Assembly: GCA_902812345.1 (NCBI GenBank)
Contig: CADDZM010000001.1
Span: forward strand, 1 to 64,000
Origin: Chloroflexota bacterium
GTDB taxonomy: Bacteria; Chloroflexota; Chloroflexia; Chloroheliales; Chloroheliaceae
Direction: 5' to 3'
Length of the DNA: 64,000 nt
In this document: positions 25,045-64,000 of the stretch, one piece after another
Position numbering within the stretch: position 1 is the stretch's first letter
How the letters are laid out: the number at the start of each line of letters is the position of its first letter
Position numbers and translations under genes: made by a program
The notes under the pieces: generated by a model
Databases searched by the model: none
The model's input: the letters and a program-made list of their open reading frames with translations, nothing else
Told to the model about the DNA's origin: nothing

Positions 25045-25050
25045 ATTATA
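25045..25050 (-). promoter_or_regulatory. Probable -10 element for rpe-ltaE-trmD
   Basis: TATAAT on the minus strand, overlapping the stop codon of the ABC permease gene, about 45 bases before rpe. No clear -35. Confidence 0.4.
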
Positions 25051-26569
25051 CCGTTCCTCCGGTCAGCCAGCAGCCGATGGTCGGGGTGATATTGGCCTCT
25101 ATTATAGCCGCAATCAGCAATAATGGCACAATCAGACCCAACAGCTTTATATAATTTACGATGGCAAACTGGAAACTCTGGCCGATGCTCATTCCAGCAG
25201 GCGGGGCAATCAGCGAAGTGCTAATCTTCAGCGCGGCAGCGATACCCAGGATAGCGGCGGGTAATTCGAACAGACCGTGAGGGAGAATAAACCCGGCCAG
25301 AAGCGGCCATGGGTTAAGGCTTAACTGGAAGAAGAAGCCGAGAACAAAGCCGACCGGCCCGGTAGAAACTATCAGGAGAAGGATACCGGCAACACCAAGG
25401 CTGATAATTGAAAGGCCGCTCCCAATCAGCACCGAAACCGTATTGTTGATAAAAAGACCCTGCCAGGTGATGCCCTGAAAACCGTTGATACTGATACTGT
25501 TTATCCCGTTGGGCTGGCAAATCGGGTTCTGGGTTCCGCCGAGGCTATCACCCAGGTTCAGGCTGTCGCGGAACTCCTGCACCACCGGCCAGTAAGAGAC
25601 CCAGATAGAGACGACTATCCCGCCCACTATAGCAGCAAGTACTACCAGGGCAGGCGCTCGGTAGAGGCCGACCAGTTGAGGAATATCGTGCCGGTAGAAA
25701 CGCCAGGGTGTCCAGCGAAGGCCGGTCTTTTGGTGGGCCAGGGCTTCCCGGGGAGTGCGCTTGAAGAAATAGCCGAAGCCGCGCAGGATTCCTTTGAAGC
25801 TAACATTGTCCCCTTCCCTGGCAATAATTTCCTCGCGGTTGAAAATCTTCACGCCCGCCCGTATCAGCAGCAGCAGAATAACTAAAAGCACCAGCAGCAT
25901 GAAGTAAAGGCCAATCTGCAAATTGTTAAGTAGAAGGACCGCTTCAAACTGGACGCACAGGCTCATTGGCAAAATGATAAAACTTGCCATAATATTAGCG
26001 GCCCGGACGCTGGTGGTGTGGGTGCTGACCAGGACTGACCCGGCCACCATTACCAGAGCCTGCACGATATTCAAAGCCAGGAAGGTTAGTAGCAAACCAG
26101 GCTCGACCGGAAAAGGCTGGCCCATCAGGGTAAAGACCAGGCCAAAACTGAGCGAAGCAAAGATACTGGCGAGAACCGTCGGTAAAGTCGCGGCCAGGTA
26201 CTTACCCAGGAATAATTCAAAGTCAGTCAGGGGGGCGCTCATCAGAGCTTCCAGGCTGTTGCGCTCTTTCTCACCCACAAAAGTTTCCAGGGCAATCACC
26301 AGGCAAAACGACATCGGCAGGAACCCGATAGCCAGTGTCGTAAAAGGCAACAGGCGGTCGTAGAAAGTTGCGCGGCCCAGATTTCTTATTAGATCAGGGC
26401 TAAGTATGTTCAGGATAGCCGCCAATATAATAGGAAGAATGATAACAAGGGTAATAATCGGAGATAACACTCGCCAGTCGCGTAAGGTGTCGCGTAACTC
26501 GCGCCGAGTGACAATGAGGGCTCTTGAAATGGATGAACGCGTTCCAGGAAAAAGTTCAACCTGGCTCAC
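25046..26569 (-). CDS. ABC-2 type permease fused to a SpoIIM-like membrane domain
   Basis: 507 residues. The N-terminal half (about 1-250) is an ABC-2/NatB-like permease: RRELRDTLRDWRVLSPIITL, FVGEKERNSLEALMSAPL and about six helices. The C-terminal half (about 290-500) resembles the SpoIIM family, with GFILPHGLFELPAAILGIAAALK as landmark. Both halves are membrane domains, and the joined form looks unusual. Start is GTG overlapping the ATPase stop (GTGA), so the pair is coupled. It probably exports a substrate with the ATPase at 26566; the substrate is unknown. Confidence 0.85.
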   Translation of the reverse strand: MSQVELFPGTRSSISRALIVTRRELRDTLRDWRVLSPIITLVIILPIILAAILNILSPDLIRNLGRATFYDRLLPFTTLAIGFLPMSFCLVIALETFVGEKERNSLEALMSAPLTDFELFLGKYLAATLPTVLASIFASLSFGLVFTLMGQPFPVEPGLLLTFLALNIVQALVMVAGSVLVSTHTTSVRAANIMASFIILPMSLCVQFEAVLLLNNLQIGLYFMLLVLLVILLLLIRAGVKIFNREEIIAREGDNVSFKGILRGFGYFFKRTPREALAHQKTGLRWTPWRFYRHDIPQLVGLYRAPALVVLAAIVGGIVVSIWVSYWPVVQEFRDSLNLGDSLGGTQNPICQPNGINSISINGFQGITWQGLFINNTVSVLIGSGLSIISLGVAGILLLIVSTGPVGFVLGFFFQLSLNPWPLLAGFILPHGLFELPAAILGIAAALKISTSLIAPPAGMSIGQSFQFAIVNYIKLLGLIVPLLLIAAIIEANITPTIGCWLTGGTV

Positions 26570-27809: not shown

Positions 27810-29381
27810 CTAGGGTCTGCGGCGTTGGGTAAACAACCAGGCAGCCAGACCGCCGCCGGCAACTATCACCAGTATACCGCCGATAATAATTGGTAAGGCC
27901 GATCCGCTATCACCGGGGGTAACCGGAGATGCAACCGCGCCAGCGGGCAAGGGAGTGCTGGTAGCCCTGGGTTGAGGCTGACCCGGAGTTGCAGTTGGTA
28001 CAACCCGGGCTGCAACTGTAGCCGTGGAACCGGCCGAACCAACCGTGGTGCCGCTTGTCCCAATTCCACTGGAAGTTGTTACAGCCGGCGCAAGGGCGGT
28101 ACTTGACGGAACGACCGGGGCTGAATCTGCCGGTAAGGGTGTAGATGTGATTGGTACAATTGGCGTACCCTGGGCTGGCGTTGGCTGATTGTGGGCCTTC
28201 AGGTAGTTAGTCGCGCTTGTCTGAACCTCCTTATAAACCGGCTTTTCAACAAAATCTTTGGTTACCATCTGGAAATATTGCTCCGAAGCGTCATCTGGGA
28301 TATCCCCCACCTGGCGGAAGAACCAGACGAAAATAACCCCTGACCACGGCCAATTCTTTTTGGCGTAGTCAATACCCTGGACCGTCCAGTCAGCTTGCTG
28401 CTGTTCGGTCACCCGGCCCCAGGTCAATCTATCGGCGGGCATAGAAGGGGGTGAAGCATTCCAGCCGTATTCGTTAAACCAGACTGCCTTGTTAGTGTCA
28501 CCGTTTTTGACCATCACGTTGTGGAGAAGTTCCACCCGGCGATAATTCAAGACTTTAGGGTCAGGCGCGGCCTCCGGCGGAAATTCCAGGCCGTAAGCAT
28601 TGGCTGGCATAATATCGAAGTAATCTTTCGCCCCGGCTTTGTACATCTGGTCCAGGTAGGTCAGCTCACTCAGGTTGATATTTTCTTCAAGGGTGATTGC
28701 CAGGGGAGCGGCCATAACCTTTACATTCGGGTCAGTGGCCTTGACCGCCTTGTATGCCACCTTGAGCATATCTACATAAGCCACGGGGTTGACCTTTTTG
28801 GTAGGTTCCCACTCGCGTTCAAGGTTTGGCTCATTCCACACACTAATATATTGAACCTTACCTTTATAGTGCTGCACGAAAGCTTTCAAGAAGTCGGCGT
28901 AATCCTGGTAATTAGCCGGGTGACCGCCCGGGACTCCACCCGCCGGGTTCGCCCAGGCCGGGGTCTGGTCAATCCTGGCTACAATCTGGATACCATACTT
29001 GTTTGCCAGGTCTACAATCTCATCGAATTTCTGCCAGCCTGACTTCTTGTTTTTGTCGTCGTTGAAATAACCTTTTTTAAACTCTATTTCATTCCAGGGG
29101 AAAAGTTGCTTGATCCACTTGATACCGGCCTGGCTAATCATCTGCAGGGTCCGGTCTTTTTTCCAATATTCAACTTCCTTGTCAAGAAAAGTGTTGGTGC
29201 CATACGGGTCAATATCTGTATTGGGGATAGCGGCAGCCGGGGCCTGGGGTCCAACCGCCTGGGCTGGGGGCGGGGCTACCAGAAAAAGGGAAGCAAGCAA
29301 GACCTGGGACAAAAGCATCATCGTAAAAACAAGGGCTACCATCTTTAACCGCTTGTTTTTTGGTGTGTAAAACAAATTCAC
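27810..29381 (-). CDS. Cell-surface glycoside hydrolase-like protein (clan GH-A barrel)
   Basis: 523 residues. A signal peptide (VALVFTMMLLSQVLLASLFL, cleavage near AQA) leads to a (beta/alpha)8-type domain. Probable acid/base Glu184 is in VWNEPN and nucleophile Glu304 in WFNEYGW, the arrangement of clan GH-A glycosidases such as GH39 or GH5. A long Thr/Pro/Ser-rich stalk (about 400-485) is followed by a C-terminal transmembrane helix and RRRP, so it is anchored outside the cell. The exact GH family and sugar cannot be read from sequence. Start is GTG with AAAGGAG well placed. Confidence 0.82.
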   Translation of the reverse strand: MNLFYTPKNKRLKMVALVFTMMLLSQVLLASLFLVAPPPAQAVGPQAPAAAIPNTDIDPYGTNTFLDKEVEYWKKDRTLQMISQAGIKWIKQLFPWNEIEFKKGYFNDDKNKKSGWQKFDEIVDLANKYGIQIVARIDQTPAWANPAGGVPGGHPANYQDYADFLKAFVQHYKGKVQYISVWNEPNLEREWEPTKKVNPVAYVDMLKVAYKAVKATDPNVKVMAAPLAITLEENINLSELTYLDQMYKAGAKDYFDIMPANAYGLEFPPEAAPDPKVLNYRRVELLHNVMVKNGDTNKAVWFNEYGWNASPPSMPADRLTWGRVTEQQQADWTVQGIDYAKKNWPWSGVIFVWFFRQVGDIPDDASEQYFQMVTKDFVEKPVYKEVQTSATNYLKAHNQPTPAQGTPIVPITSTPLPADSAPVVPSSTALAPAVTTSSGIGTSGTTVGSAGSTATVAARVVPTATPGQPQPRATSTPLPAGAVASPVTPGDSGSALPIIIGGILVIVAGGGLAAWLFTQRRRP

Positions 29382-29474
29382 AAGACTCCTTTCAACAAAC
29401 CCTTAGCAGGGAATGTTCTTTTACCAACCCAAATGGGAACTAAAATGGAAAAGTTCGGCTCACAAAGTGTCGTC

Positions 29475-29480
29475 ATTATA
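29475..29480 (-). promoter_or_regulatory. Extended -10 promoter of the glycoside hydrolase gene
   Basis: Minus strand TGGTATAATG, about 95 bases before the GTG start. No clear -35. Confidence 0.5.
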
Positions 29481-29514
29481 CCATAATCCTGAGGAGGCTA
29501 AATCTCTTAAAACA

Positions 29515-29530
29515 TGTTTCACGTGGAACA
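29515..29530. other. parS site 1 (ParB-binding centromere sequence)
   Basis: TGTTTCACGTGGAACA. Its reverse complement equals the Bacillus parS consensus TGTTNCACGTGAAACA at every fixed position. It lies in a 344-base intergenic region between divergent genes, where two such sites would not be expected by chance. Confidence 0.85.
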
Positions 29531-29621
29531 TGCTTGATAAACCAAAAGGAATTGCGTGGTAAGAAGAAAGTTGTACGTAAAACAAAGCGGGGGGATTGGG
29601 TCGTAAGTGTATACCCGCCCA

Positions 29622-29637
29622 TGTTTCACGTGGAACA
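29622..29637. other. parS site 2 within a 32-base palindrome
   Basis: An identical 16-mer, TGTTTCACGTGGAACA, 107 bases from site 1 and in the same orientation. It is embedded in a 32-base near-palindrome (29614-29645) whose arms CCCGCCCATGTT/AACATGGGCGGG match exactly. Confidence 0.85.
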
Positions 29638-29674
29638 TGGGCGGGTAATCAGAACGCCTTATTGCCTCAGATGC

Positions 29675-29680
29675 TATAAT
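29675..29680 (+). promoter_or_regulatory. Extended -10 promoter for the 29.7 kb gene
   Basis: TGCTATAAT about 45 bases before the ATG at 29726. It lies 38 bases from parS site 2, so ParB binding might affect it. Confidence 0.5.
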
Positions 29681-29725
29681 AAACCGCAGACAATATGATA
29701 AAACTTTTTAGTTGCAGGAAGCCTG

Positions 29726-30484
29726 ATGCCGGATTTGAAAATCACAAAACTTGGTTCGCGACTGGTCCAGCCGCGCATAGATGAAGGTGAATCCTCCTTA
29801 TTAGCCAGAGCTTTTCGGACCCGCCTTCTCGAAGACGCTGCCCCCGACCCGGCCCTGCTCTATCCTAAAAAACCTGGTAAAGTCCGGGTGGCCGTCTTTA
29901 ACGATACCAGCGAAAAGTTTAGAACCGTTATAAGGCGCATCGCTCTTACCGTAATTGCGCCGGTTGTGGCTTTACTCATAATCGGTTTTATTGTCCTCTC
30001 AACCATAAATCAACCGAAGCTCAGCTTACCCATCGAAACCGAGTCTGTTGTGCTGGGGGATGTTCCGGTTCCGGCGGGGGTCCGTCCGATAGAACGGGCT
30101 ACTCTCTATTCTCCCAGCCAGTTTATTGATGTATACTTAAACCAGGTGCTGCCTAATTATTCCGACCAGTTCAAGTCGGCTGCCTCTTATATTGGTCCGA
30201 ATTCGCAGGATGAATTAAACGCCTTTTACAATACCAGGTTGCTTCAGACCAAATCGTTACGCTGGCAAACTTATGGCAAACCGGCTACCTATAATATAAC
30301 TTTCACCAGCCTTTATGTCAGGGCTTTAAGTTCACAGGTTCCTGGTTCAATTGAAGCTCTCGTGGTGCAGTTCGAGCCGGTTAGCGTCGGTATTTTGAAA
30401 CAAGACCCTGCCTATTATGATAAGCAGGCTAAATTAGGCGAAACAGTTATTATTTTATCCAAAGCATGGCTTACGCCACGTTAG
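29726..30484 (+). CDS. Single-pass membrane protein of unknown function
   Basis: 252 residues: a basic cytoplasmic N-terminus of about 75 residues, one transmembrane helix (IALTVIAPVVALLIIGFIVL) and an extracytoplasmic domain of about 150 residues with Tyr/Gln-rich stretches (FIDVYLNQVLPNYSDQFKSA). I recognise no family. AGGAAG six bases before the ATG supports the start. It is the first gene right of the parS pair and probably shares a transcript with the next gene. Confidence 0.72.
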   Translation: MPDLKITKLGSRLVQPRIDEGESSLLARAFRTRLLEDAAPDPALLYPKKPGKVRVAVFNDTSEKFRTVIRRIALTVIAPVVALLIIGFIVLSTINQPKLSLPIETESVVLGDVPVPAGVRPIERATLYSPSQFIDVYLNQVLPNYSDQFKSAASYIGPNSQDELNAFYNTRLLQTKSLRWQTYGKPATYNITFTSLYVRALSSQVPGSIEALVVQFEPVSVGILKQDPAYYDKQAKLGETVIILSKAWLTPR

Positions 30485-53420: not shown

Positions 53421-53487
53421 TTGCCTCTCTCTTTTTATTTATTTCCCGTTCAATATCCAATGTTTTACGTTCAACGGCTATTTTGGC

Positions 53488-59107: not shown

Positions 59108-60496
59108 CTATACCGTCATAGCACTGGGCTGCTTGTTGGAATTGCCGCCGATTTGGACGTTCTTAATCCGCACGTGCGGCGAACCCATCCCGACCGGCAG
59201 CGGCGATTGCCCGCCCTTGCCGCAACTTCCGGCGGACCATTCCAGGTCGTTGCCGACCGCTTCGACATCGCCAAGCGTCGTAAAGATATTCCCGGCCATC
59301 ACCACATCTTTGACCATTTCGGCAAGCTGGCCGTCCCGGATCATATAGGCATACTGGCTGCTGAAAGAGAAGTTTTCCATCGCGGTCTGCCCGCCGATAA
59401 AGTCGCAGGCGTACACGCCCAGTTCGATGTCTTTAATCATGTCCTCGAAAGGCGTCTCGCCGTTCTTGATGCAGGTGTTGGTCATGCGGACAATCGGGCT
59501 GTGGCGGTAGTCCATAGCGCGGGCATTCCCGGTAGGTGTCTCGCCGAGTTTGGCGGCAGTTTCGCGGGAGTGGAGCCGCCCGACCAGTTCGCCCTCTTTA
59601 ATCAGGTCGGTTTCGTGGGTCGGGGTGCCTTCGTCGTCGTATTGCATGGTGCCAACCAGGTTCGGGTGGACCCCGCCATCGGACACGTTCAGGATGGACG
59701 GCCCAAAGCGGCGGCCCAACCGCATCATTTCCTGGGCGCGCGGGTTCTGGTCAATGTGGTCGGCCTCAGAGAGGTGGCCGAAGGCTTCGTGCATAAAGAC
59801 CCCGGCCAGAATCTGGTCGAGGATAACGGTGTAGTTCCCGGCCTGGACCGGCTTGGCTTTGAGCATTTCCACGGTGCGCTTGCCGAGGTTGGCGACTTTC
59901 TCTTCCTGGTTGTAGATATTATTGAAGTCCCAGGCGGTAAAGACCCGGTCGAAAGACTGCTGGACGTTCGCGCCGTCACGGGCTACCGCGCTAAAACGCA
60001 GGCTGCCGTAAGGCTTTTCTTGCTTGACATAAGCGCCGTCGCTGTTGGCGTAGTAGGTCGTTACCATCGTATCGCCATAGCTGACGCTGGAATCCTGCAG
60101 GCCGGGGACGGACAGCATGACGCCGTTATAGTGTTCGGTAATTTCCTTTTTAGTAGCGAGGTCCACCTTGCGGAAGTCGTTTTCAAGGTTGATGGACAAC
60201 TCGGCCACGTGGGCATCCAGTTCGGCCAACTTGGTATCACCCTCGCCGAGAGCTTTGGCGCATTCCAGGGCCAGCGCCACGTGGCGGTCGAGTTCGGTCA
60301 GGCTATTAAAAGTGCTGACGCCCCAGTTTCCGTTGTTAAGCACCCGGACGAACCCGCCGACATCGCGCCCGGTATTCACGGTTTCCAGGATTTTGCCGCG
60401 ATAGGCAATACTGGTATTATCTTTGGTTTCGATGCGAATTTCGGTATAATCGGCCTTGCTTTTCCTCAAAGCGTCGGCAATACGGTCTCTCATCAT
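59108..60496 (-). CDS. tldD: TldD metalloprotease subunit
   Basis: About 462 residues. Metal motif HEAFGHLSEAD (HExxxH) plus the downstream Cys-containing region (CDFIGGQ) mark the catalytic subunit. LFMHE-type context and GRLHSRETAAKLGETPTGNAR are conserved. The start is uncertain: ATG at 60496 is my choice; a TTG at 60526 keeps the frame open for ten more codons, but neither has a strong ribosome-binding site. First gene of a tldD-tldE operon. Confidence 0.92.
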   Translation of the reverse strand: MMRDRIADALRKSKADYTEIRIETKDNTSIAYRGKILETVNTGRDVGGFVRVLNNGNWGVSTFNSLTELDRHVALALECAKALGEGDTKLAELDAHVAELSINLENDFRKVDLATKKEITEHYNGVMLSVPGLQDSSVSYGDTMVTTYYANSDGAYVKQEKPYGSLRFSAVARDGANVQQSFDRVFTAWDFNNIYNQEEKVANLGKRTVEMLKAKPVQAGNYTVILDQILAGVFMHEAFGHLSEADHIDQNPRAQEMMRLGRRFGPSILNVSDGGVHPNLVGTMQYDDEGTPTHETDLIKEGELVGRLHSRETAAKLGETPTGNARAMDYRHSPIVRMTNTCIKNGETPFEDMIKDIELGVYACDFIGGQTAMENFSFSSQYAYMIRDGQLAEMVKDVVMAGNIFTTLGDVEAVGNDLEWSAGSCGKGGQSPLPVGMGSPHVRIKNVQIGGNSNKQPSAMTV

Positions 60497-60526
60497 CGGT
60501 TTTAAATCCAGCCTTTCTAAATACAA

Positions 60527-61071
60527 ACAGGCAGTAAGATGGGCCTTTTAATAATAGCTATATCAAGATATTATACTCCAATTATGGGGTAAAAGTTCCC
60601 GTTTAAGCAATTTCAGCTCTTTTTAAGTGGTGTTGGGTGCTTTCTTTGTTCTTAACTATTTAAGAATTGTATTGTGGGTAAACCAACTAGAGATCTGACG
60701 TTTATCTTTAGCCAACTCAGAATTAGAATTATCAGCTATTTTTCCAGAAATAATACATATCTAACCCTTTCACGGCTTGTATACATTCCCAAGTTAAAAA
60801 AGCCATGAATGCTTGATTTATTTGCCGTATTCGTGCTAATCTTGTATATTAAGCTAAACCGCGTGAAGGAAATTACGGTCTTGCTTGTATTCAATTTTGC
60901 AAGTTGTTTTAGTTCGCCAACTGGGTAGTCACTGAAAATACTAGTCAGTTTCGTACCTTTTGTTTAAGGGTATATTGAACTTTGTATTAGGCGAAAGTTT
61001 GCTGATTTGGTGATATTGATAGCAGCAACCTAACTATTTTACGCTCGAGATACAGAAACCGCAGGGTACTA
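60527..61071. other. 545-base AT-rich intergenic region at the island's left edge
   Basis: GC content drops sharply here compared with the tldD side. A -10-like TATAAT on the minus strand (60570-60575) may drive tldD. I see no gene, no tRNA copy and no obvious insertion repeat. The methyltransferase promoter is not clear. Confidence 0.4.
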
Positions 61072-62355
61072 ATGATGATTACTAAATTGCTTGAAACACC
61101 TGTTCAGGGAGCCGATTTAAAAACCAAACCAACCGAAACACTTAATTGTGGTGATTTGTTTGCCGGTGCAGGTGGTTTATCAGTTGGTTTTCATCTTGAA
61201 GGTTTTAATTCGGTTTTTTTCAATGAAATAGATAAAGTTGCTGCCAAAACTTTTAGCTTTAATTTTCCTGATGCCACCTCATTCACATTCCCAATTCAAG
61301 ACCTAACTGCTGAACAAATCCGCAAGGAGAGTTCTTTAGGAGATGAGGAGCTTGATGTAATGGTAGGAGGGCCACCTTGTCAAGGATTTAGCATTAATGC
61401 TCCAGTTCGAAGCACTGAGGATCCACGAAATATTCTTTTTCATCATTATGTCCGATTAGTTTTAGAAGGTATTCGACCAAAGTTTGTAGTTCTTGAGAAT
61501 GTACCTGGATTAGTCTCATTCAATAATGGCAAAACTTTGCAAGATGTTGTTACCGCTTTTGAAAGGGCTGGTTACAAAGTAGTATTTCGTATTTTAAATG
61601 CAGCTCATTATGGAGTGCCAGAAGAACGTTGGCGCTTGGTCTTTATAGGTACACGGCTTTCAGATGTTGAACTATCTTTTCCTTTACCAACACATTACAG
61701 TTTACAAAGGCCCAATTTTACGGGAGGCCGAAGCCATACTTTTCAATATGCTATTGGGAAACCATTACAGCCCAGTTTGTTTTTGGAAGATAAGTTACAG
61801 AAACCAATCACAGTAGGTGAAGCTATCGGGGACTTGCCACACATTGAATCAGGTGGTGGTTCATTAGAAATGGATTATTACCTACCCCCACAAAGTGAAT
61901 ATCAGGCTCTATTGCGAAATCATTCCAAAAGGTTATACAATCATATTTGTTCAGGTGTGAGTGACATCAATATTGAACGTATGAGTCATGTTTTGCCTGG
62001 AGGTTCCTGGCGTGATATACCTCATGATTTACTCCCCCTTGGCATGCAAAGAGCCCGCCGAAGTGACCACACAAAACGTTACGGTAGACTGGACCCTGAA
62101 GGTGTTTCTGGTACGATCCTAACAAAATGCGACCCTCACTGGGGTACAGTCTTTCATTTTAACCAGGATCGGATAATAAGTGTTCGTGAGGCAGCCAGAA
62201 TTCAATCTTTCCCTGATTGGTTTCGTTTCATTGGGACTCGTAGCGACCAGTATCGGCAAGTTGGTAATGCTGTACCACCTCTGTTAGCCCAGGCAATTGG
62301 CAAACATATTAAGAAGCTAATAGAAAACCAAAATTTGGTATCAAAAATTTCCTAA
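61072..62355 (+). CDS. DNA (cytosine-5)-methyltransferase
   Basis: 427 residues. C5-methyltransferase motifs in order: I LFAGAGGLSVGF (29-40), IV GGPPCQGFS with catalytic Cys103, VI LENVPGL, VIII-like AHYGVPEERWR, IX/X REAARIQSFPD and YRQVGNAVPPLLAQ. The variable target-recognition region spans about 225-340. AT-rich, with codon use unlike the nuo or clpC genes. It ends 16 bases before the endonuclease gene, so it is the protecting partner of that enzyme. AGGG precedes the ATG. Confidence 0.93.
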   Translation: MMITKLLETPVQGADLKTKPTETLNCGDLFAGAGGLSVGFHLEGFNSVFFNEIDKVAAKTFSFNFPDATSFTFPIQDLTAEQIRKESSLGDEELDVMVGGPPCQGFSINAPVRSTEDPRNILFHHYVRLVLEGIRPKFVVLENVPGLVSFNNGKTLQDVVTAFERAGYKVVFRILNAAHYGVPEERWRLVFIGTRLSDVELSFPLPTHYSLQRPNFTGGRSHTFQYAIGKPLQPSLFLEDKLQKPITVGEAIGDLPHIESGGGSLEMDYYLPPQSEYQALLRNHSKRLYNHICSGVSDINIERMSHVLPGGSWRDIPHDLLPLGMQRARRSDHTKRYGRLDPEGVSGTILTKCDPHWGTVFHFNQDRIISVREAARIQSFPDWFRFIGTRSDQYRQVGNAVPPLLAQAIGKHIKKLIENQNLVSKIS

Positions 62356-62371
62356 AGGAAAGCGGAAAATT

Positions 62372-63328
62372 ATGCCACGCGCACAAGGAAAAGACCTTTG
62401 TGAACTTTTTGGGTATGCCCCAGATGATGATTCTGCTATTGCTAGAAAACAACGCGATAGCCAAATTTGCCCATTTATTGGAGGCATTTGTATAAAACAC
62501 AGTCACCCACTTCCAGGTGGTAAAATAGATATTTTTGGTTCTTGCAGTGTTGCAAATAAACCAAAAAAAGGAACATTAGAAGAAGTGGTTATTTGTCCTC
62601 AACGTCTTTATGCTAACAGATACGAGGTATTGCAAAGGGTTATTCTAGATGCTGTTGGTGAAGGAATTCCATTCTTCATGGCAGACGAATATAAGCAGTC
62701 GAAACGTTTAGACGCCCTTCCAAGTAATTTTGTGGTACTACTTGGTAAAAATTCAAGTGCTGAAATTTCACTTTCAAAAAGGGATCCTATTACGAATAAG
62801 CTTATAAAACTAAATCTTGATTGGGTTTTTGCACAATTAGTAGATGGTATTTTAACTCAAATAATACCTTGTGAAGTTCAAAGTATTGATATTACGGGTA
62901 ATTATCATGCAAACTGGAAAGCTTATATGACTGAAGCTTCCAGTATTCCAAATTCAAATCATGGATTGAATTGGGCAAATGTCTGGAAAAGATTAATCCC
63001 ACAATTAATCTTGAAAGGTACAGTTGCTGCTAATTCAGAATTATGCAAAAGTGGCAGTTATTTTGTTCTCCCAGAAAGAGTGTACAATCAGTTTGAGAAC
63101 TTAGTTGGGAAAGTTAATCCTGTAAACCTTCCTGGACCAGGCGTACTAACAATAATGACCTATGAATTAGGACCGCTAGTTCCATTTGGTTCCATTCGAT
63201 CATTAGTTCAAAAACGAACAATAAGGATGTTATCTGCCGATTTTTCTATAGCCTTTTCTGCTGGTCACCGTTTGCCATTAGGTTCTCAACTTGACTCAAA
63301 AGTTTTAAGCGTACTGAATGCTCTATAA
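62372..63328 (+). CDS. NotI-like type II restriction endonuclease
   Basis: 318 residues. The pattern matches NotI: four cysteines Cys33 (ICPF), Cys40, Cys58 (GSCSVAN) and Cys75 (VVICPQRL) at spacings like NotI's iron-binding cysteines, then Asp150 (NLDWVFAQ) and Glu168-Val-Gln170 (PCEVQSIDITGNY), equivalent to NotI's D...E-x-Q active site. The rest is highly diverged. The target sequence cannot be read from the protein. Coupled to the upstream methyltransferase; AT-rich. Identity rests on motif alignment from memory, so moderate confidence. Confidence 0.75.
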   Translation: MPRAQGKDLCELFGYAPDDDSAIARKQRDSQICPFIGGICIKHSHPLPGGKIDIFGSCSVANKPKKGTLEEVVICPQRLYANRYEVLQRVILDAVGEGIPFFMADEYKQSKRLDALPSNFVVLLGKNSSAEISLSKRDPITNKLIKLNLDWVFAQLVDGILTQIIPCEVQSIDITGNYHANWKAYMTEASSIPNSNHGLNWANVWKRLIPQLILKGTVAANSELCKSGSYFVLPERVYNQFENLVGKVNPVNLPGPGVLTIMTYELGPLVPFGSIRSLVQKRTIRMLSADFSIAFSAGHRLPLGSQLDSKVLSVLNAL

Positions 63329-63558
63329 TTAATTTAAGCTCTGCAACCCTAAAATTTCCGAATCCGATGGCTATGCACCTTGATAGTTTTGCTTTCTAAC
63401 CTCTCAGATTTGCAGTAGGCGAGCCAACTGTGAAACAGACGGTTGTCCTCAGTTGCCTCGGAATTATTAATAACGGTTGTTTTTCCTGACATAAAAATGC
63501 ACCCCACTTTTTCGAGGAGTGCCATTTGTCACATAGGGAAGCCACAAATAAATAAAAA

Positions 63559-63631
63559 TACGCCCGGCAAGGATCGAACTTGCGACCATCCGCTTAGAAG
63601 GCGGATGCTCTATCCACTGAGCTACGGGCGC
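63559..63631 (-). tRNA. tRNA-Arg (anticodon UCU)
   Basis: Minus strand reads GCGCCCGTAGCTCAGTGGAT..., with anticodon stem-loop CCGCC-TTCTAAG-CGGAT giving UCU, T-arm GTTCGATCC and acceptor end CGGGCGT. First acceptor pair is G-U. CCA is not encoded. 73 bases. Its 3' end faces the restriction-modification genes. Confidence 0.93.
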
Positions 63632-63688
63632 TCTTTTCAGGCTAGATTATATCTTTTTACGCTTTATCTGGCAAGTGTGGTTTAACTT

Positions 63689-64000
63689 TTATCTCGCCAG
63701 TAAGGCCCGAATGCTGTAGCTCCCGGCCTGGCGCATCTTCTCGATGGTGACGTTCTCGTTGCCAAGCGAGGCGTGGACGCCCAGTCCGTCTATGATGCCG
63801 ATTAGCGAGAGGGTCGCCATATCGGGGTCGAGCGAACGGAAGGTGCCCGACCGGATGCCGTCCTCGATAATTGAGCGGATGAGGTTGAACCAGCTTCCAA
63901 AGCGGACCTCGTTGAGGTGGCGCAGATTGGGGTTATTGATGGCTTTTACCCAGAAGGTCAGCGAGATGTACCACTCGCGGCGGTCGTCCGGAGAGTCGGG
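63689..64000 (-). CDS. TetR-family transcriptional regulator, C-terminal part (5' truncated by the window)
   Basis: The frame is open from the right edge to the stop at 63689, 103 residues. IIEDGIRSGTFRSLDPDMAT followed by LIGIIDGLGVHASLGN is the ligand-binding C-domain pattern of TetR/AcrR proteins. The HTH lies outside the window. GC-rich again, like the core genes. Confidence 0.75.
   Translation of the reverse strand, partial: PDSPDDRREWYISLTFWVKAINNPNLRHLNEVRFGSWFNLIRSIIEDGIRSGTFRSLDPDMATLSLIGIIDGLGVHASLGNENVTIEKMRQAGSYSIRALLAR

Follow-up and report, generated by a model that had tools for sequence, protein, structure and literature searches.

Two exact parS sites in a conserved intergenic gap mark a probable origin-proximal centromere in a Chloroheliaceae genome

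parS sites are the DNA handles by which bacteria separate newly copied chromosomes. We analyzed a 64,000-nucleotide stretch (the window) at the start of contig C1 of a Chloroheliaceae draft MAG, and conclude with a probability of about 93% that the intergenic gap at 29382-29725 is the centromere of the main chromosome, with two intact parS sites and one decayed site. We read the cluster as an origin-proximal chromosomal ParABS centromere, a well supported, ordinary system of a known kind, because the parS sites are unique in the genome and conserved in place in three genera, a ParB with parS-type residues is encoded together with ParA and SMC, and dnaA and DnaA boxes lie close to parS in relatives. 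The probable ParB centromere of the original prediction is thus upheld by the only exact copies in the genome, a gap kept in three genera and a single ParB with parS-type residues. In what follows G000 is the genome of the window, G001 and G002 are congeners, and G003 and G004 represent two other genera of the family. The features of the locus are as follows.

27810-29381, minus strand: left flank, protein with a membrane anchor that resembles glycoside hydrolases (weak match to GH10), a conserved neighbour
29382-29725, no strand: intergenic gap holding the parS cluster, with divergent genes on either side; matching gap with three-site clusters in G001-G004
29515-29530, minus strand: parS site 1, exact, TGTTCCACGTGAAACA on the minus strand; matched site in G001 and G002
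29569-29584, plus strand: putative eroded middle parS, AGTTGTACGTAAAACA, 3 mismatches, with distances of 54 and 53 bp to the intact pair
29612-29647, no strand: near-palindrome of 36 nt centred on parS site 2, without a T-run
29622-29637, minus strand: parS site 2, exact, TGTTCCACGTGAAACA on the minus strand
29726-30484, plus strand: right flank, lineage-specific membrane protein without a Pfam family

The two exact 16-mers that had been noticed in the same orientation 107 bases apart were both confirmed. The sequences at 29515-29530 and 29622-29637 are exact copies of TGTTTCACGTGGAACA with identical orientation and a spacing of 107 bp, each is contained in the 20-mer CATGTTTCACGTGGAACATG, and both match the consensus TGTTNCACGTGAAACA exactly on the minus strand. 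The genome-wide pattern search that had been proposed as a check showed that the MAG as a whole (6.72 Mb, 674 contigs) contains no exact parS besides these two, and it found no further parS with 0 or 1 mismatch elsewhere in the MAG. Base composition predicts 0.01 exact copies genome-wide, so the match to the consensus goes beyond chance.

Midway between the intact sites, the sequence at 29569-29584 lies in the alignment opposite the intact middle parS of the congener G001, and the flank AATTGCGTGGTAAG is common to both. Matches to parS with three mismatches number 8 in 64 kb on one strand, and the chance of finding one within the 90-bp interval is therefore about 1%. Because of its midway position and its alignment with the middle site of G001, erosion is a better reading than chance, and this sequence is probably a decayed third parS.

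A three-site parS cluster was found in the matching intergenic gap of 4/4 sampled relatives, which indicates that the sites are kept in place. G001 and G002 each carry three exact parS between the orthologues of 27810-29381 and 29726-30484, and upstream of the 29726-30484 orthologue G003 has three sites in which the GTTTCACGTGAAAC core is perfect and G004 three parS sites that have drifted. We took the latter genome, a closed and multipartite family member, as Ca. Chlorohelix; the order is now Ca. Chloroheliales (formerly 54-19 in GTDB), and chromosome 1 of the published closed Ca. Chlorohelix genome is a circle of 2.96 Mb (PMC10972752). In G002 (C87:93837-93959) all three parS, as a group, have the opposite orientation to those of G000 and G001 while the orientation of the flanking genes is unchanged, which can be read as a block inversion or a concerted change.

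The location of the sites between two divergent genes, a TGnTATAAT-like box upstream of the right-hand gene that is conserved in relatives, and the joint retention of the gap and its neighbouring genes across three genera would also suit operators, through which a regulator (perhaps ParB) controls the divergent genes, with the centromere role absent or secondary. We consider this explanation very improbable. The sites have the canonical parS sequence, there is no other copy in the genome and a parS-type ParB is present; moreover, the other families of the class have parS, in one or a few copies in each genome, and no relative of the right-flank gene was found there, the relatives of this gene being confined to five family members among 41 genomes. 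A search for sigma-70-type promoters over the parS gap gave one weak match, no more than in shuffles.

G000 contains 11 ParB-family genes. None was found on the contig of the window, in line with the earlier remark that parA and parB are not present here. A chromosomal-type ParB is encoded on a separate contig (C2:41837-42880); it has a GRGLSALG start, a GERRW CTP motif, GKSR and GHARALL, the last two being present together in this ParB and in 0/10 of the others. R173 and G201 are conserved in ParBs that read parS, with Q and R in Noc (PMC7383237), and the GKSR/GHARALL residues are the equivalents of R173/G201, so that this is a chromosomal ParB with both the parS-specificity residues and the CTP motif. 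The PDB entries that it matches best are chromosomal ParB and Spo0J, and each relative has one orthologous gene, whose product is 85-91% identical within the genus and about 60% identical within the family. A 25-residue insertion, approximately, in the CTP-binding domain of this protein is also found in G002 and G004 and is absent from the accessory ParBs and from G039, a Chloroflexus chromosome. ParA is encoded next to ParB (C2:43007-43792, ParA family match), and a single full-length SMC gene in G000 provides the condensin partner.

Noc, a paralogous ParB-like protein of nucleoid occlusion, belongs to a related protein family and its binding site (NBS) is of similar length. The window sites, however, have a CACGTG core and miss the NBS consensus TATTTCCCGGGAAATA, and at the two switch positions the C2 ParB carries R and G where Noc has Q and R. 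Neither half of the Noc/NBS pairing, a TATTTCCCGGGAAATA-type site with a Q173/R201 protein, was thus found in the window sites and the C2 ParB, and the reading as Noc binding sites was rejected.

Sites resembling parS with two mismatches contrast with the canonical pair: in G000, an accessory ParB gene is no more than 1.5 kb away from 6/8 of them (p about 7e-13).

C2:76236, C42:8827, C62:10960, C220:2219, C236:7038 and C355:2834: two-mismatch parS variants inside or beside accessory ParB genes

Judging by these sequences, the accessory ParB systems appear to have retained variant sites of their own, distinct from the canonical sites of the window, which would thus leave the canonical pair for the chromosomal ParB.

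The claim that the sites are origin-proximal is borne out in the relatives. In G002 a 192-kb contig (C87) joins dnaA, parS and dnaN, and it is collinear with G000:C182, the dnaA contig, and G000:C1, the contig of the window. These two contigs are unjoined in the draft MAG, which we counted against the centromere reading. The features of G002:C87, where dnaN and ligA were named from their own sequences, are the following.

39.5-39.8 kb: DnaA boxes, just upstream of dnaA
40.3-42.0 kb: dnaA
93.8-94.0 kb: parS
172.1-173.2 kb: dnaN
173.2-175.4 kb: ligA
176.9 kb (176887-176958): tandem DnaA-box cluster

The distance from parS in G002 is thus 52 kb to dnaA and 83 kb to the tandem DnaA-box cluster. 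The latter was found again in G001:C47 (107535), where parS is 89 kb away, and in G000:C106 (4873-4901); its boxes have a 10-bp spacing and lie near dnaN and ligA in G002. This cluster is a candidate alternative oriC besides the boxes upstream of dnaA, and whichever of them is oriC, parS lies 54-89 kb from it. On chromosome 1 of G004 (2,961,161 bp) dnaA is found at 1.4 kb, and 90 kb separate parS from the far end. If the published closure applies, dnaA has parS at 90 kb on one side of it and parB at 93 kb on the other. The location near the replication origin is therefore given by dnaA and DnaA boxes in G002 and G004, and in G000 by synteny only, from which the distance in this genome would be about 55 kb.

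It could also be proposed that the sites lie on a secondary replicon, plasmid or integrated element and not on the main chromosome, since G000 has ten other ParB genes, a parS-like variant occurs within or next to many of these, and the closed genome in the family is a multipartite one. This is even harder to sustain than the operator explanation: housekeeping genes (nuo, radA, clpC and rpe) lie near the parS cluster, the parS contig of G002 bears dnaA and dnaN, the cluster of G004 is on the dnaA chromosome, and the accessory sites differ in sequence from those of the window.

One site had been placed in a near-palindrome of 32 bases; the near-palindrome is indeed there, around site 2, and its length is 36 nt. 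It has a 14-bp stem (z = -6.2 as single-stranded DNA) and no T-run, and is therefore not terminator-like, so a terminator reading was rejected. That the sites are chance matches or a simple hairpin element, as this strong hairpin-forming palindrome might suggest, is refuted by conservation, since the parS sites are kept in place in relatives whereas the hairpin arms are not, and retains almost no probability with two copies 107 bp apart where 0.01 are expected genome-wide.

Two arguments of the original prediction did not stand. The direction of the genes, taken as a sign of replication forks leaving this zone, is a loose trend only and weak evidence of an origin (20.2/26.3 kb of coding sequence leftward on the left of parS and 19.6/30.3 kb rightward on the right). 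GC skew, sampled by 20-kb stretches, gave no usable switch in any of three sequences, the window, G002:C87 and G004 chromosome 1, and its pattern was not significant in G004 and in the Herpetosiphon-like G037. The skew test therefore cannot decide in this family, and we counted the failure of skew to mark an origin here against the centromere reading.

Elsewhere in the window, 25046-26569 encodes an ABC-2 type permease fused with a C-terminal SpoIIM-like domain (Pfam E = 4.6e-20). The stretch 60001-64000 has a GC content of 0.42 vs 0.53 and a probable DNA cytosine methyltransferase at 61072-62355, and is perhaps a restriction-modification island. A GTTNAACGTTNAAC-like palindrome lies at 53461-53476; such palindromes are common among the matches to a loose parS-like pattern genome-wide, which is in excess over a reversed control in G000 (77 vs 27) and G001 (118 vs 31), and they are perhaps the operator of a LacI-type regulon.

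Skew was informative in two chromosomes of the class Chloroflexia. In G039 (5,258,541 bp, taken as Chloroflexus aurantiacus) the skew origin was at 1.95-2.1 Mb (40 stretches; 0/5000 permutations as good), and parS at 1.969 Mb and parAB and DnaA boxes at 1.967 Mb (1.967-1.970 Mb) lie at this origin. dnaA is at 1.5 kb, about 2 Mb from parABS, and the C. aurantiacus genome paper places oriC at twelve o'clock (PMC3150298). In G028 dnaA and parS are 142 kb apart and both fit the skew origin. parS therefore agrees with the skew signal in 2/2 chromosomes and dnaA in 1/2, and since the G039 skew origin is at parABS, about 2 Mb from dnaA, parS can be a better origin marker than dnaA in this class. G039 resembles the window genome in having canonical parS at one genomic place and an orthologous ParB, with parS at the GC-skew minimum; unlike in the window genome, the beginning of its parA reading frame overlaps with parS, and about 2 Mb separate parS from dnaA.

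The exact 16-bp parS, the clustered copies near the origin, the one ParB that combines residues of the R173/G201 type with a GERR CTP motif, the adjoining ParA and SMC are all as in the ParABS of Bacillus subtilis and most bacteria. By homology with that system, ParB would bind and load at the window parS as a CTP-dependent clamp, slide onto the flanking DNA and recruit SMC, and ParA would then move the ParB-DNA complex such that the origin region segregates first. In contrast to that system, the window genome has very few sites, two intact and one decayed, at a single spot, and its parAB operon is unlinked and without a local canonical site. parAB does not adjoin parS; in the genus it is next to nrdR (about 20 kb away in G000:C2 and G001:C77), which in G004 is on chromosome 2, and we counted this against the centromere reading. 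A rep-parABS module, in which another ParAB pair is accompanied by a plasmid-like rep-type gene, lies at C2:70612-76229, approximately 30 kb from the chromosomal parAB, and also in G001:C77. It is conceivable, if rather unlikely, that in this genus the chromosomal parA and parB are on a different replicon from their own dnaA-linked parS; if this were true, one replicon would supply the segregation machinery of the other in trans.

Our literature searches found no paper on parS in Chloroflexi. In all, the centromere reading pins down where the main chromosome has its centromere and origin region in the Chloroheliaceae, a Chloroflexota family that has been little studied and counts a type I reaction-centre phototroph among its members, and makes parS a simple means of placing origins in draft genomes with weak GC skew.
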